Positions 15,926-24,841 of a DNA stretch of 64,000 nt are shown here, in pieces. The stretch spans positions 1-64,000 of the forward strand of contig JANXDO010000002.1 in NCBI GenBank assembly GCA_025059375.1. The letters run 5' to 3'. The number at the start of each line of letters is the position of its first letter. The first letter of the stretch is position 1. The translations under genes were made by a program, and so were the position numbers. Under the pieces are notes generated by a model. That model saw only the letters and a list, made by a program, of their open reading frames with translations. It was not told where the DNA came from and searched no databases. Source of the stretch: Candidatus Nezhaarchaeota archaeon. GTDB lineage: Archaea > Thermoproteota > Methanomethylicia > Nezhaarchaeales > WYZ-LMO8.

Positions 15926-17113
15926 ATGCGTCGTGAATCCATGGTCTTAGCTGCTTCCTTCTCTACAGCATTCATGGCTTATGGCGTCCGCTACACCTTC
16001 AGCATGCTGCTGCCAGAGATGATGGGGGAGCTCAACTTAACTAACACTCAAGCTGGCTTAATGTACACCAGCTTCCTGACCCTATACACGGTAGCTTCAG
16101 TTCTCGTTGGCTTCTTAGTTGACGTTGAGGGGGTCAAGAGGACGATGCTAAAGTTCCTCCCACTCTTTGGTCTTGGGACGGGGTTGATGTCCTTAACTTT
16201 CTCTGATTGGAGTGGAGCCATCTTTTTCGGCATAGCTGGCTTAGGTGCTTCAGCTTGTTGGACGCCGCTCATAGTTTGGGTTCAGAAGGCCTATCAATTT
16301 AGGCGAGGATTGTTTCTAGGGGTACTTCAAGTTGGCTGCAACATGGGCTTCGGGGTCTTGGGGGTGCTGATACCATTGATGCTGCCTCATCTAGGTTGGA
16401 GGGGTTGTTGGGCTATGTTAGGGGTGTTATCGATGGCTTGGTTAATGCCCTTAATTGTCATGGCGCACGAGCCGATCATCGAGAGTACTCGAGAGAGAAG
16501 CTTATTGAAGCATGTTAAGGGCTTTAAAGCTTTATTGAGAAGCAGACAATTCTGGTTTGGTGGCTCATCCTACATGTTAGCAGCTTTCGCCATAATGGTC
16601 CCAATGACCTTCACGAAGGCGTATGCAAATCTCGAGTTGAACGTAAGCTCAGAAGCTGCTACAGCACTCTTCACTGTAATAGGATTTGTGGGGATAGCTG
16701 GATCACTACTACTTCCACCACTATCAGATAAACTAGGCAGGAGAAGCTCAATCTTAATGTGCAACTCAATAATGGCTATTGGGCTATTAGGCTCAATGAT
16801 CACGATCCCCTCATTCACGCACATAGCTTTGTGGAGCGCCATAATCGGATTAAGCTATGGAGCCATATGGCCCCTATATGCAGCCCTGATTAAGGACCTC
16901 TACACTTGGAGTGTTGTGGGGTCTATAATGGGCTCCTGGACCATGATGTGTGGCATCGGCCTCTTACTCTCACCAGCAGTGGGTGGACTAATAACTGATG
17001 TCTTCAGTAGCTATAAGCCCACGTACTTCATGGCGTTCACCACAGCATTAGCATCCATGGTGCTCACACTCCCAATAAAGAAGATTAAGCTAAGTAAAGT
17101 TAAGGATAATTAA
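15926..17113 (+). CDS. MFS transporter, 12-helix organic anion/monocarboxylate-like type
   Basis: 395 residues with 12 predicted membrane helices. Features include LPEMMGELNLTNTQAGLMYT at the first loop, a weak motif A (DVEGVKR), GLGASACWTPLIVWVQKAY in helix 4-5, and DKLGRRSSILMCN in the second-half motif A. The architecture matches the OFA/MCT-like or YbfB-like branch, carriers of organic acids and similar anions. It is clearly related to the MFS gene at 23505-24734 (same helix 4 pattern, ASAWTPMV there), so the genome has at least two members. A GAGGAGG ribosome site lies at about 15911 before the ATG. Confidence 0.85.
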   Translation: MRRESMVLAASFSTAFMAYGVRYTFSMLLPEMMGELNLTNTQAGLMYTSFLTLYTVASVLVGFLVDVEGVKRTMLKFLPLFGLGTGLMSLTFSDWSGAIFFGIAGLGASACWTPLIVWVQKAYQFRRGLFLGVLQVGCNMGFGVLGVLIPLMLPHLGWRGCWAMLGVLSMAWLMPLIVMAHEPIIESTRERSLLKHVKGFKALLRSRQFWFGGSSYMLAAFAIMVPMTFTKAYANLELNVSSEAATALFTVIGFVGIAGSLLLPPLSDKLGRRSSILMCNSIMAIGLLGSMITIPSFTHIALWSAIIGLSYGAIWPLYAALIKDLYTWSVVGSIMGSWTMMCGIGLLLSPAVGGLITDVFSSYKPTYFMAFTTALASMVLTLPIKKIKLSKVKDN

Positions 17114-17167: not shown

Positions 17168-17593
17168 TTGGTGTACGTTTTGAGTGATGAATTGAGAAAT
17201 AGGTTGCTTAAAGTATTTAGGCAAGATCCATATGCTAAGTTTCTTGGGATAGAGCTTCTTGAAGTGAGAGATGGCTATAGTAAGGCTGCTTTAACTGTTC
17301 AGGATTTTATGTTGAACTTTCACGGAGTTGCTCACGGCGGCTTAATAGCATCCTTAGCTGATGCCGCCTTTGCAGCAGCAAGCAATTCTCATAATAAAAA
17401 AGCTGTGGCACTCTCATTGAATATAAATTACCGTAAACCAGCCAGAGTGGGTGACGTACTCATAGCTGAAGCGTTTGAGGAAAGTCTAGGTAAAATTACT
17501 GCCACGTATAGAATTGCAGTTAAGAATTCTGAAGACAACTTAGTGGCTGTAGGTCAAGGTCTAGTATACAGGATGGAGGAGTCCATTTTATAG
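17168..17593 (+). CDS. PaaI-family hotdog-fold acyl-CoA thioesterase
   Basis: 141 residues. The HGVAHGGLIASLADAAFAAA stretch is the active-site helix of the PaaI/4-hydroxybenzoyl-CoA thioesterase group, with the catalytic aspartate in LADAA. The second half (LNINYRKPARVGDVLIAEA) completes the hotdog fold. These tetrameric cytoplasmic enzymes cut acyl- or aryl-CoA esters, in PaaI's case clearing dead-end CoA esters in aromatic-acid degradation. The start is TTG 17168 or GTG 17171. It follows the MFS carrier by 54 bases with its own TATA-like element, so common control is possible but not shown. Confidence 0.85.
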   Translation: MVYVLSDELRNRLLKVFRQDPYAKFLGIELLEVRDGYSKAALTVQDFMLNFHGVAHGGLIASLADAAFAAASNSHNKKAVALSLNINYRKPARVGDVLIAEAFEESLGKITATYRIAVKNSEDNLVAVGQGLVYRMEESIL

Positions 17594-20327: not shown

Positions 20328-22910
20328 ATGCCCACAAATGCCTTCCCAACAGATCACAATGAGAAGATCTACACGAATTGTACTGTTGGTGGCCCAGTCC
20401 ACGTTCACGTTAAGGATGGCAGGATAGTCAGGATAAGGCCTCTCGACATAAGGCCTGAAGATGTTGAACCGTGGGTCATAGAGGCGAGGGATCGTAGGTT
20501 CTCTCCTCCAATCAAGGTGACCGTGGCGCCTTACGTGCTAGCTGAGAGGTGTCGAGTGTACTCACCTAAGAGGGTCCTTAAGCCGCTTAAGAGGGTGGAC
20601 TTTGACCCTGATGGCGAGAGGAACCCCCAAAATAGGGGTTTATCGGGTTACGTGGAGATATCGTGGGGTGAAGCTATCGAGATCGTGGTCAACGAGATCG
20701 TTAGGCTTAAGGAGAGGTATGGCGCATCGTCGATAGCTGCGTTGGCATCATCACACCACACGTGGGGTAACATAGGGTACAGGACTAGCGCATTTCAACG
20801 CTTCTTCAACATGCTCGGCTGCACTTACATCGATCACAATCTCGATAGTTGGGAGGGCTGGTATTGGGGGGCAATACACACATGGGGCTTCTACTGGAGA
20901 TTGGGGCAGCCAGAACAGTACGACCTGCTCGAGGACGCCCTCAAGCACACTGAAATGATAGTCTTCTGGTCTGCGGACCCAACAGCAACTCAAGGGAACT
21001 ACGCTGGTCAAGAGTCTGAGAGGTGGAGATTGTGGTTGAAGGAGTTGGGCGTGAAGATGGTCTTCATAGACCCCTTCTTCAATCACACAGCCGCTAAGTA
21101 CGCTGACAAGTGGCTATCCCCATATCCAGGGACCGACGTGGCTCTAGCCCTAGCAATTGCCTACACTTGGATCAAGGAGGGGACGTATGACGAGGACTAT
21201 GTGAGCAAGAGGTGTCACGGATTCGATGAGTGGAAGAGGTACGTGCTGGGTGAAGAGGATGGAACCCCCAAGACGCCTGAGTGGGCTGAGGAGATATGTG
21301 GGGTCTCGAGGGGCGACATAGTGTGGTTGGCTAGGGAGTGGGCATCGAGGAGGACCATGTTGGCCCCCGGCGGTAGACCGGGCTTTGGAGGGGCTTGTAG
21401 GACAGCTTATGGTCACGAGTGGTCTAGGATGATGGTCACGCTCCAAGCAATGCAGGGGCTTGGGAAGCCTGGCGTGAACATATGGTCTACGACCACTGGA
21501 GCTCCTTGGAACTATGAGTTCTACTTCCCAGGTTATGGGGAGTGCGGCATCTCAGGCGATGGAGCTGGCATACTGCGTCTAGTGCCCAGTGGCTTCGTGA
21601 AGAGGGTTACGAGGAACACCGTGAGGCAAGTAGTTAACAGGTTGCTACTGCCCGAGGCCATACTCAACCCCCCGCTCTCATGGAGGAGGTGCTCTCCTTG
21701 GGGTGAGTCGATGGAAGTTCAATTCGATCTCTGCACGTACCCAATGCAGGGCTACTCTAAGATTAAGATGCTCTACAGGTATGGAGCCTCCTACATTGGG
21801 ACCATGACTGAGACGAACAGGTACATTAGAATGTACAGGAGCCCAAACCTCGAGTTCGTCGTGTGCCAGACGATATGGATGGAGCCTGAAGCCAAGTTCG
21901 CCGACTTGATACTCCCGGCGTGCACGAACTTCGAGAGGTGGGATATAGGCGAGTGGGCTGGCATATCGGGTTACAGCCCAGACCTAGCCTCCTGCAACTT
22001 CAGGATAATAGTGTTGCAGATGAAGTGCATTGAGCCCCTGGGGGAGTCTAAATCCGACTACGATATCTTCACAATGTTGGCTGAGGAGCTGGACTTCAAG
22101 GAGGAGTACACAGAGGGCAATAGCGAGCTGGATTGGGTCAAGAGGATGTTTGAGGTGAGCGACATGCCAAAGTACATCTCGTGGCAGGACTTCATGAAGA
22201 AGGGCTACTTCATAGTCCCAATACCGAAGCCGTACAGGTCGAGGACCGCATTTAGGTGGTTCTACGAGGGCAGGAAGAAGGACACCCCCGACAGAGGTCC
22301 AACGCCTAAAGATAGGCCAGTCTACGGTTATGGGCTAGCGACCCCGACCGGGAAGATAGAGCTTGTATCTGAGAACTTGAAGAGGTTTGATCCCAATGAT
22401 CCTGAGAGACCAGTAAAGCCCAAGTTCATAGAGCCTTGGGAGTGGTACAGGAGTGAGAGAGCGAAGAAGTACCCATTGCAGTTGGTCTCCCCACACCCTA
22501 GGTACAGCTTCCACACTCAATACGATGGCAAGGAGACCTGGATTGACGAGATACCGCTGCACAGGAGGAGAGGGCCTGATGGCAGGTATTACTGGGTGTT
22601 GAGGATAAACCCCAGCGATGCGGAGCCCAGGGGGATTAGGGATGGGGATCTAGTCAAGGTCTACAATGATCGTGGAGCTGTCGTGTGCATAGCAGAGGTG
22701 ACTGAGCGCATTAGGCCAGGCGTCGTCCACGCCTACGAGTCTTCAGGACTCTATGAGCCCATTGGAGATCCAGGGAAACCTGATAGCATAGATCTAGGTG
22801 GCTGCATCAACTTGTTAACCCCCTCACGATTAATGTCTAGGAACGCTACGGCCATGGCCCCGAACTCATGCTTAGTTGAAGTTGAGAAGTGGGGTGGGCT
22901 CGGTGGTTAA
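20328..22910 (+). CDS. Molybdopterin oxidoreductase, pyrogallol-phloroglucinol transhydroxylase-like alpha subunit
   Basis: 860 residues of the DMSO-reductase family. From memory it follows the Pelobacter acidigallici transhydroxylase large subunit along its whole length: GGPVHVHVKDGRIVRI, ERNPQ, SSHHTWGNIGYR, DHNLDSWEGW, EQYDLLEDALKH, YEFYFPGY. The residues known there as Mo ligand and active site (Ser175, Asp174, His144, Tyr152, Arg153, Tyr404) line up with S174, D173, H143, Y151, R152 and Y403. Trp354 appears as F353. The N-terminal 4Fe-4S cysteines of most relatives are missing, as in transhydroxylase, and there is no Tat signal, so it should be cytoplasmic. That enzyme moves a hydroxyl between trihydroxybenzenes. 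The beta subunit gene overlaps its end. A related hydratase or dehydroxylase activity remains possible. Confidence 0.82.
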   Translation: MPTNAFPTDHNEKIYTNCTVGGPVHVHVKDGRIVRIRPLDIRPEDVEPWVIEARDRRFSPPIKVTVAPYVLAERCRVYSPKRVLKPLKRVDFDPDGERNPQNRGLSGYVEISWGEAIEIVVNEIVRLKERYGASSIAALASSHHTWGNIGYRTSAFQRFFNMLGCTYIDHNLDSWEGWYWGAIHTWGFYWRLGQPEQYDLLEDALKHTEMIVFWSADPTATQGNYAGQESERWRLWLKELGVKMVFIDPFFNHTAAKYADKWLSPYPGTDVALALAIAYTWIKEGTYDEDYVSKRCHGFDEWKRYVLGEEDGTPKTPEWAEEICGVSRGDIVWLAREWASRRTMLAPGGRPGFGGACRTAYGHEWSRMMVTLQAMQGLGKPGVNIWSTTTGAPWNYEFYFPGYGECGISGDGAGILRLVPSGFVKRVTRNTVRQVVNRLLLPEAILNPPLSWRRCSPWGESMEVQFDLCTYPMQGYSKIKMLYRYGASYIGTMTETNRYIRMYRSPNLEFVVCQTIWMEPEAKFADLILPACTNFERWDIGEWAGISGYSPDLASCNFRIIVLQMKCIEPLGESKSDYDIFTMLAEELDFKEEYTEGNSELDWVKRMFEVSDMPKYISWQDFMKKGYFIVPIPKPYRSRTAFRWFYEGRKKDTPDRGPTPKDRPVYGYGLATPTGKIELVSENLKRFDPNDPERPVKPKFIEPWEWYRSERAKKYPLQLVSPHPRYSFHTQYDGKETWIDEIPLHRRRGPDGRYYWVLRINPSDAEPRGIRDGDLVKVYNDRGAVVCIAEVTERIRPGVVHAYESSGLYEPIGDPGKPDSIDLGGCINLLTPSRLMSRNATAMAPNSCLVEVEKWGGLGG

Positions 22911-23487
22911 GTGGGCAATGGTAATAGACCTGAAGAAGTGCACGGGCTGCTATAATTGTGTATTGGCGTGTAAGGATGAGTTCTGGGGCAACCCCTACCC
23001 CCCGTACTCAGCTCCACAGCCAAAGTTTGGTCACTTCTGGATTAGGATAGAGAAGAGGGAGGAGGGTAGGTGGCCAAACCTGATAAGAGTGACGTACACC
23101 CCCATGCTTTGCATGCACTGCGATGAGCCATCGTGCATTAAGGTCGCCAAGGGCAATGCAGTGTACAAGAGGTCTGACGGCATCGTAATAATTGACCCGG
23201 AGAGGTCTAGGGGGCAGAGGGAGATAGTTGACTCCTGTCCATATCGATCAGTGTTCTGGAATGAGGATCTACAGATACCTCAAAAGTGCACGTTCTGCGC
23301 CCACTTGATAGATAGAGGTTGGACGAAGCCTAGATGCGTTGAAGCTTGCCCAGTAGACGCCATAGTGTTTGGCGACGCAGAGGACCCGAGCAGCGAGGTC
23401 TCAATGCTAATATCTCTGGGGAAGGCTAAACCCCTACATCCAGAGTATGGGACTAGGCCCAGAGTCTACTACATAGGCTTGAGGTGA
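22903..23487 (+). CDS. Transhydroxylase-like beta subunit, three 4Fe-4S clusters
   Basis: 194 residues. Cysteine motifs CTGCYNCVLAC, CMHCDEPSC, SCPY and CTFCAHLI with later RCVEACP can hold three 4Fe-4S clusters, as in the transhydroxylase beta subunit. Shared details include MVIDLKKC, GHFWIRIEKRE, DGIVIIDPE, QKCTFCAHL and a final RVYYIGL. The Pelobacter protein then continues with a prealbumin-like domain of about 75 residues; here the gene stops, so that domain is absent. GTG 22903, just before the alpha stop and giving an 8-base overlap, was chosen because the N-terminus then matches the family; a TTG at 22876 is possible. It also resembles NrfC-type electron carriers, but the paired alpha subunit decides the call. 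Confidence 0.85.
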   Translation: MVKWAMVIDLKKCTGCYNCVLACKDEFWGNPYPPYSAPQPKFGHFWIRIEKREEGRWPNLIRVTYTPMLCMHCDEPSCIKVAKGNAVYKRSDGIVIIDPERSRGQREIVDSCPYRSVFWNEDLQIPQKCTFCAHLIDRGWTKPRCVEACPVDAIVFGDAEDPSSEVSMLISLGKAKPLHPEYGTRPRVYYIGLR

Positions 23488-23504: not shown

Positions 23505-24734
23505 CTACCACGATGTGCCCTTCTTTGAAGGCTTCATCTTGGCTAAGCCAGCTACAGCCAGGACTAGTGCCATCAAGTAGGTCGCCATGCCCAATTGCAG
23601 TGCAGCCACGTAGCTCTTGGTGACGTCGGCTATCAGCCCACCAATCACCGGTGACGTCAGGGAGCTCAGCCCCAGCATGAGGGTCCATAGCCCCAAGACA
23701 GTTCCAACGGAGCTCGGGCATATGTCGCCAGCGCAAGCTGCATAAGTCGGCCACAGACCTCCAAAGAATAGCCCATACATCAACATTATCAACGGCAGCA
23801 AGCGCACGAGCGGGGTGCTTTGTGGGAGGAGCGAGAATAGGGCTAAGCTAACTGATGCAACCCCATTGCTGGCTGCTAGAATCGTGGCCCTCCCAACTCT
23901 GTCAGAGACCCAGCTCAGTAGCAGTGCTCCAGCAATGCCAGTGAAGCCCATGAGGCTGATCATCGATGAGGCCTCGACGTACGGCATCTTGACCTCACGC
24001 TCCAAGAAGTCCACTAGGAACGTTAGGACTATGTACGTCCCAAAACCCATGAAGGAGTAGGAGAGGCCAATCAACCAGAATCGCCTCGAAGACAGCACAT
24101 CCCTGTAATTAACGAGCCTCCTACCCTCAAGCCTCAGGCTAGACCCTCCACCCGCCCTCGCGAGCCAATGAAACGCTAAAGCGTAGGCGAATAGGGGGAG
24201 TGCGAAGACGAGCCAAGCCGCTCTCCAGCCCAGGGCCAGAGCCACTGGAGGCAACAGTAGACCGACGGCTCCATGAGAGGCCCTTATCCCCACCTCCAAC
24301 ACCCCAGCGCTCCTACCCCTCCAAGAGCTCGGCAGGTACGAGGATGCCAAGGCGACCATGGGCGTCCAAGCCGACGCTGCCCCCAAGCCAGCAAAGGCTA
24401 GCGAGAGCAGCAGGGATGGGTAGTTGCTCGATAGCCCCACCAGGACCATGCCGAGCCCGTAGACGACGCACAAGGCGCTCACAATCCTAATGCCAAACCT
24501 ATCGAAGAGCCTACCAGAGGCCACCGAGAACGCGGAGTACAGCATTATGTACACGGAGTACGCGAAGCCAGCTTCAGCCCTACTGAGGCCCAGGTCCTCA
24601 ATCATCCTCGGCAGGAGGACGCCGTAACCGAACCTAGCAATGTAGGAGAAGAAGAGGAAGGAGGAGGCTAGCGACAGGATCAACACGTAGAACCTAGTAG
24701 ACCCCCTAGAGCCCAATCCTCGACCATCGACCAT
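23505..24734 (-). CDS. MFS transporter next to the transhydroxylase-like operon
   Basis: 409 residues, 12 membrane helices, OFA/MCT-like pattern: GYGVLLPRMIEDLGLSRAEAG, GRLFDRFGIR (motif A), GLGAASAWTPMVALASSY and SDRVGRATILAASNG. It is a paralogue of the MFS gene at 15926. The gene converges on the transhydroxylase-like operon (17-base gap). A start at 24815 would lie upstream of the TATA-like box (24773-24789), so ATG 24734 is preferred. The promoter carries the GACGTCT motif also found at the transhydroxylase promoter, so a role as importer or exporter of its phenolic substrate or product is a reasonable guess, not proven. Confidence 0.82.
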   Translation of the reverse strand: MVDGRGLGSRGSTRFYVLILSLASSFLFFSYIARFGYGVLLPRMIEDLGLSRAEAGFAYSVYIMLYSAFSVASGRLFDRFGIRIVSALCVVYGLGMVLVGLSSNYPSLLLSLAFAGLGAASAWTPMVALASSYLPSSWRGRSAGVLEVGIRASHGAVGLLLPPVALALGWRAAWLVFALPLFAYALAFHWLARAGGGSSLRLEGRRLVNYRDVLSSRRFWLIGLSYSFMGFGTYIVLTFLVDFLEREVKMPYVEASSMISLMGFTGIAGALLLSWVSDRVGRATILAASNGVASVSLALFSLLPQSTPLVRLLPLIMLMYGLFFGGLWPTYAACAGDICPSSVGTVLGLWTLMLGLSSLTSPVIGGLIADVTKSYVAALQLGMATYLMALVLAVAGLAKMKPSKKGTSW

Positions 24735-24759
24735 CAACGCCCACCATCCAGTGATGTCA

Positions 24760-24789
24760 ACGTCCCTGGACGTCTTAAAGCTTTTTAGC
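24760..24789 (-). promoter_or_regulatory. MFS promoter with inverted repeat and TATA box
   Basis: On the minus strand AAAAAGCTTTAAG (about 24774-24787) is a TATA-like box; directly after it comes ACGTCC-AG-GGACGT, an inverted repeat at 24760-24773 located between TATA box and start point, where a repressor would act. Plus-strand GACGTCT (24769-24775) is identical to the core at 20278-20284 by the transhydroxylase start. Confidence 0.45.
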
Positions 24790-24808
24790 GAGGAGAGTGG
24801 AGCTAGAT

Positions 24809-24841
24809 GCCCCACGAGCTAATGAATTCGATTGGTGGGGC
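24809..24841. repeat. Inverted repeat GCCCCAC/GTGGGGC
   Basis: Seven-base perfect arms (24809-24815 and 24835-24841) separated by 19 bases, in the intergenic region between the MFS gene and the surface-protein operon. It could be an operator or an RNA hairpin; no U run follows it. Confidence 0.35.

Follow-up and report, generated by a model that had tools for sequence, protein, structure and literature searches.

Two adjacent genes in the 64,000-nucleotide stretch of DNA analysed here (positions 1 to 64,000 of contig JANXDO010000002.1 of a Candidatus Nezhaarchaeota archaeon; hereafter the window) encode a true archaeal representative of the transhydroxylase family that includes the pyrogallol-phloroglucinol transhydroxylase (PGTH) of Pelobacter. 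In this bacterium the molybdenum enzyme transfers hydroxyl groups from one plant-derived phenol to another; 1,2,3,5-tetrahydroxybenzene serves as its co-substrate, and the reaction is redox-neutral overall. Judging from its sequence the archaeal pair probably acts on polyhydroxybenzenes, with pyrogallol as a plausible substrate, and it is probably linked to a triacetate-producing route. The explanation that we favour, with moderate confidence, is that the pair is a PgtL/AhtL transhydroxylase acting on polyhydroxybenzenes and feeding a phloroglucinol/triacetate-type route. The features concerned are the following.

20328..22910, forward strand: alpha, catalytic subunit (860 residues) of a predicted bis-molybdopterin guanine dinucleotide (bis-MGD) molybdoenzyme of the PgtL/AhtL family, from phmmer, Pfam and a structure model
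20748..20855, forward strand: active-site stretch of alpha, codons 141-176, holding H143, Y151, R152, D173 and S174, from alignment to Pelobacter H144/Y152/R153/D174/S175
22876..23487, forward strand: beta subunit, 203 residues from a TTG, with 12 Cys predicted to hold three [4Fe-4S] clusters and without the C-terminal prealbumin/CarboxypepD_reg-like domain

A phmmer search with alpha returned the large subunit of Pelobacter acidigallici PGTH (4v4c_A) as the top solved structure (E 7.9e-302, 1007 bits), against 279 bits for the second best, a trimethylamine N-oxide (TMAO) reductase. By blastp alpha and Pelobacter PGTH are 52.9% identical over 867 columns, while the next solved structures reach about 27%. 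Pfam domains in alpha are PF00384 (molybdopterin), PF01568 (dinucleotide-binding) and PF21423 (Pyrogallol hydroxytransferase large subunit-like domain 1, AhtL-like; 71.5 bits, cutoff 27). The latter occupies the N-terminus in place of an Fe-S domain, and no N-terminal Fe-S motif was found, the first 100 residues holding Cys at 18 and 75 only; the Pelobacter subunit likewise has no N-terminal Fe-S domain. An AlphaFold2 model of alpha built on a 34-sequence alignment (pLDDT 87.7, pTM 0.89) again gave 4v4c_A as the top Foldseek match (TM 0.95/0.93, 2.0 Å, 52% identity), followed by dimethyl sulfoxide (DMSO) reductases at 27% identity. Assignment as a DMSO/TMAO reductase was rejected on this identity and on the different ligand context, and assignment as an acetylene hydratase or catechol dehydroxylase was rejected because 2e7z scored 51 bits only, against 1007 bits for 4v4c.

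In the family alignment, Pelobacter H144, Y152, R153, D174, S175, W354 and Y404 correspond to window H143, Y151, R152, D173, S174, F353 and Y403. Six of these seven named positions are the same in both enzymes. The Ser ligand within its N-x-D-S-W-E-G motif and the catalytic His, Asp and Tyr, whose roles in Pelobacter PGTH are general knowledge, are all present (S174, H143, D173 and Y403). The Ser175 position is invariant in the family alignment and, aligned to it, Ser174 is the expected Mo ligand. Arg153 is kept in only 9 of the 111 family rows, nearly all of them archaeal or Pelobacter-type: Pelobacter, a Desulfofustis relative, the window, the sister genus G121, three copies of G316 (a genome of another class of the same phylum), one Dehalococcoidales and one distant archaeal sequence. 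At position 354 Phe is the commonest residue (47/111 rows) and is also found in bacterial copies that lie within phloroglucinol clusters (L043, L047, L049, L055); W354 occurs in Pelobacter, Desulfofustis, two G316 copies and two betaproteobacterial copies. Two of the G316 copies carry the complete Pelobacter set HYRDSWY. Because Arg153 is rare in the family yet kept in window alpha, we read the pocket as Pelobacter-like, R152 appearing as the notable likeness and F353, given the frequency of Phe at 354, as ordinary. For the same reason the idea that F353 is a special sign of a new activity was rejected.

The beta subunit found 4v4c_B as its top solved-structure match (E 4.7e-48), and the 12 cluster Cys of Pelobacter beta all paired with Cys in window beta. 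The C-terminal CarboxypepD_reg-like domain is missing from beta of the window and of G121, whereas beta of G316 and of Moorella has it; Pelobacter beta, a chain of 274 residues, presumably carries it too as its prealbumin-like C-terminal domain. With the start listed above (TTG 22876) beta would share 35 bases with alpha, and an in-frame GTG at 22903, which overlaps the alpha stop, is the likelier start. In G121, alpha and beta form one uninterrupted reading frame of 1086 residues (L111 6848-10108), which may be a natural fusion or an assembly artefact. The structural departures of the window enzyme from known family members are modest.

The original prediction, made from the DNA letters and a list of their reading frames, had proposed a two-subunit PGTH-like molybdoenzyme at 20328-23487, and both reading frames are indeed present with 4v4c_A and 4v4c_B as their top matches. 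The constant one-residue offset to Pelobacter that it gave for H143, Y151, R152, D173, S174 and Y403 is exact in the computed alignment, and its description of an alpha lacking the usual N-terminal Fe-S cysteines and a beta with the three-cluster pattern but no prealbumin-like domain was borne out. Its statement that a single pocket residue differs (F353 for Trp354) holds among the seven named positions but not elsewhere, as the Pelobacter 468 loop and some further pocket positions align poorly with window alpha.

To place alpha within the family we used a tree of 111 rows rooted on the DMSO/TMAO reductases. By sequence comparison alpha belongs to the PgtL/AhtL branch and is distant from the DMSO/TMAO reductases and acetylene hydratase. 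In the tree it pairs with its G121 orthologue (87% identity, support 100). The window, G121 and the three G316 copies branch off early, immediately outside a clade of 73 rows (SH-aLRT 100). Within that clade, Pelobacter PGTH stands together with one Desulfofustis sequence (81% identity) and a large group of bacterial sequences that have an N-terminal extension. The window enzyme thus diverges early, next to the clade of Pelobacter and these bacteria, and lies outside the Pelobacter clade proper. Monophyly of the five archaeal rows was neither supported nor rejected (approximately unbiased (AU) test, p=0.40). The nearest named relatives of alpha are bacterial, at 51-60% identity, the closest being that of Moorella sulfitireducens (L029, 60%). 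The extension of most bacterial members amounts to about 120-180 extra residues ahead of the AhtL domain (e.g. L043, L047, L105 11623-14601) and is absent from the Moorella protein as from window alpha; the one extension scanned, that of L105, gave no Pfam match.

The host is archaeal, as had been predicted: archaeal small and large subunit ribosomal RNA and RNase P models match its genome (96% complete, 14 contigs). Within the phylum PF21423 is patchily distributed, with 8 of 398 genomes carrying it. The window's family has close alpha copies in two genomes, and a G316 query found them in G316, G510 and G100 among 257 genomes of the G316 class, a fourth genome giving a 44% match only. A superfamily survey had listed 285 RhL/PgtL matches, none of them archaeal (Wells et al. 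2023, PMC10100899), whereas we find this branch in the window, in its sister genus and in a second archaeal class, the genome concerned there encoding a PGR/DPGC/BKACE-type set as well (see below). Phloroglucinol clusters were reported earlier in Archaeoglobus (PMC10470551) and archaeal phloroglucinol use as such is therefore not new. What is extended to the present archaea is anaerobic polyphenol-type degradation, with concrete enzymes for assay, and the extra archaeal branches bear on the origin of the family.

Clustering of the genes that neighbour the homologues in other genomes revealed a recurring set made up of a short-chain dehydrogenase/reductase (SDR), a 3-hydroxyacyl-CoA dehydrogenase (HADH), a BKACE, a PF04199 cyclase and a small cupin, with at least three of these genes at eight loci. 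The SDR, HADH, BKACE and cyclase correspond in type to the genes of the phloroglucinol cluster of Clostridium scatologenes, which encodes phloroglucinol reductase (PGR), TfD, TAL and dihydrophloroglucinol cyclohydrolase (DPGC; PMC10470551). Most cyclases next to the module carry W20-P-Y22 (WPY), the reported substrate residues of CsDPGC. These genes were identified by their clustering, by the WPY motif and by an NCBIfam equivalog; searched against solved structures, the SDR, cyclase and BKACE yielded no phloroglucinol-enzyme name. The Moorella copy adjoins the recurring set, without a cyclase in the DNA examined; it shares Phe at 354 with the window enzyme but has Lys at 153 and a beta with the C-terminal domain.

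The three close alpha copies of G316 are 65-67% identical to window alpha and keep Arg153. This genome matches the set with an SDR (56%), cupin (61%), BKACE (48%) and HADH (45%), to which are added a CoA-transferase and an acetoacetate-CoA ligase (TIGR01217), and an alpha/beta pair shares their contig; WPY cyclases adjoin two other alpha copies. The contig in question, C5 (L154 14480-17822, L112 5904-12902), carries the PGR-like SDR, cupin, BKACE, HADH, CoA-transferase and acetoacetate-CoA ligase as well as an aldehyde ferredoxin oxidoreductase gene, and its transhydroxylase pair has the complete Pelobacter residue set. As a candidate for an archaeal PGTH, this C5 pair outranks the window gene.

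In the window's own genome the late steps of such a route are represented. The late intermediate of phloroglucinol degradation is 3,5-dioxohexanoate (triacetate), and the single BKACE of the host (C2:326050-326958) matches NF053538 (3,5-dioxohexanoate:acetyl-CoA acetone transferase) at 450.5 bits, above the cutoff of 430; as controls, the BKACE of the full bacterial cluster L043 scored 400.7 and those of G316, G121 and Moorella 210-226. Two CoA-transferase subunit genes share its operon-like run, and their products match the subunits of the G316 cluster at 79% and 78% identity. Next to these genes lies an aldehyde ferredoxin oxidoreductase gene (L157 8010-13608, contig C2). G121 has a BKACE (66% to that of G316) and an HADH (59%). 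According to the mechanism that we propose, alpha would hold a bis-MGD cofactor with molybdenum, rather than tungsten, and Ser174 as its ligand. His143, Asp173, Tyr403, Tyr151 and Arg152, with the Ser174-bound cofactor, would bind a polyhydroxybenzene as putative substrate and shift a hydroxyl between aromatic rings in a presumed direction, while beta would carry three [4Fe-4S] clusters. The product would most likely enter a phloroglucinol/triacetate-type route whose last steps, reached by presumed middle steps, are the cleavage of 3,5-dioxohexanoate and a CoA-transferase reaction.

Several observations weigh against this explanation. Forcing the window and G121 sequences together with Pelobacter and Desulfofustis costs 87 log units and is rejected (AU p=0.000332), F353 stands where Pelobacter has W354, and window beta has lost its C-terminal domain. 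A search for phloroglucinol reductase (SDR) homologues with a cutoff of E<=1e-3 found none in either the window genome or G121, and the window genome gave no cupin. Neither of the two host PF04199 proteins has WPY (Trp20/Tyr22), so that no typical DPGC was detected. There are no phloroglucinol genes directly beside alpha/beta in the window, the BKACE operon is about 300 kb away from them, and a relative, G103, has a BKACE without alpha. The specific name pyrogallol-phloroglucinol transhydroxylase is thus not established for the window enzyme, because it lies outside the Pelobacter clade in the tree and its host has no recognisable PGR or WPY-type cyclohydrolase. The reading given in the original prediction is therefore borne out in part. 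Its wider suggestion of trihydroxybenzene chemistry, or of a new activity of the clade, in an archaeon still stands, and membership of the PgtL/AhtL branch, the phloroglucinol-cluster relatives and the 3,5-dioxohexanoate-type BKACE of the host speak for it.

With PGR, cupin and WPY cyclase not found in the host and the phloroglucinol-type cupin of G121 split over two reading frames beside an intact BKACE and HADH (L158 10735-10991), the phloroglucinol module looks incomplete or altered in the window's family. A tentative idea, to which we give rather little weight, is an archaeal polyhydroxybenzene route with a domain-reduced transhydroxylase (single-chain in the sister genus), in which ring reduction and opening would be carried out by unrelated enzymes and not by PGR and DPGC.

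The window enzyme could instead be a net-redox phenol hydroxylase of this branch, similar to resorcinol hydroxylase (RhL), in which water hydroxylates a phenol and two electrons leave through the beta clusters to a soluble or membrane acceptor, which we consider unlikely. According to the literature, the resorcinol hydroxylase RhL/RhS of Azoarcus anaerobius also belongs to the Ser-ligated branch (Wells et al. 2023, PMC10100899). Homologues from aerobic Burkholderia, Paraburkholderia and Ensifer have VOC and fumarylacetoacetate hydrolase (FAH)-family genes as neighbours, often with acyl-CoA synthetase genes, and with an OmpW/FadL-type outer-membrane protein nearby, a setting that fits ring hydroxylation followed by cleavage and hints at a molybdenum hydroxylase of an aerobic aromatic route. 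Since these neighbourhoods differ from the phloroglucinol-type set, members of the family serve more than a single physiological purpose. The missing PGR of the host also agrees with such a hydroxylase. However, window alpha retains the Pelobacter-type Arg153, its closest bacterial relative (Moorella) sits within a phloroglucinol-type cluster and no redox partner gene adjoins the window genes. Among the aerobe homologues, those beside VOC and FAH-family genes at L105-L108 are on Burkholderia, Paraburkholderia, Ensifer and Salipiger plasmids.

Less probable still is a clade enzyme unconnected to phloroglucinol that uses another aromatic substrate or performs a reductive dehydroxylation. The clade is wide, with members in aerobes and anaerobes and differing neighbourhoods, the pocket varies at 153, 354 and 468, and the absence of a detected PGR and typical DPGC fits such an enzyme. 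Against it, the 3,5-dioxohexanoate-type BKACE and the CoA-transferase of the host are homologous to those of phloroglucinol clusters, and catechol dehydroxylases belong to a separate clade, near acetylene hydratase (PMC7028382). Finally, it is very improbable that the family gained a phloroglucinol cluster and is now losing it, with alpha/beta persisting as a remnant without a working pathway, for although the split G121 cupin, the missing beta C-terminal domain in both genera and the PGR and DPGC that were not found would fit, both genera have intact alpha and beta, with alpha 87% identical between them and the catalytic residues and 12 Cys all retained, which suggests continued selection.

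Two transporters and one further gene lie near alpha/beta; the second transporter and the thioesterase provide context only.

23505..24815, reverse strand: MFS transporter, convergent with alpha/beta (MFS_1; monocarboxylate/aromatic-acid-type NCBIfam matches below cutoff)
15926..17113, forward strand: second MFS transporter of the same family (cluster c36), possibly for substrate transport
17168..17593, forward strand: PaaI-type hotdog thioesterase of the aromatic acyl-CoA thioesterase family (TIGR02286, 121.7 bits, cutoff 118.9)

A member of the c36 family also adjoins the alpha/beta gene of G121 (L111:5555-6790), and further transporters lie near the window genes. Of note, the window's own genome carries a second, distant alpha/beta pair, about 42% identical to the window gene and with the motif HTPDSGY (L123 9323-12836; C4:164322-167835), relatives of which occur in several genomes of the window's family. 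This pair adjoins GlcD-like and TfrB-like genes, which suggests that it is a redox-coupled relative.

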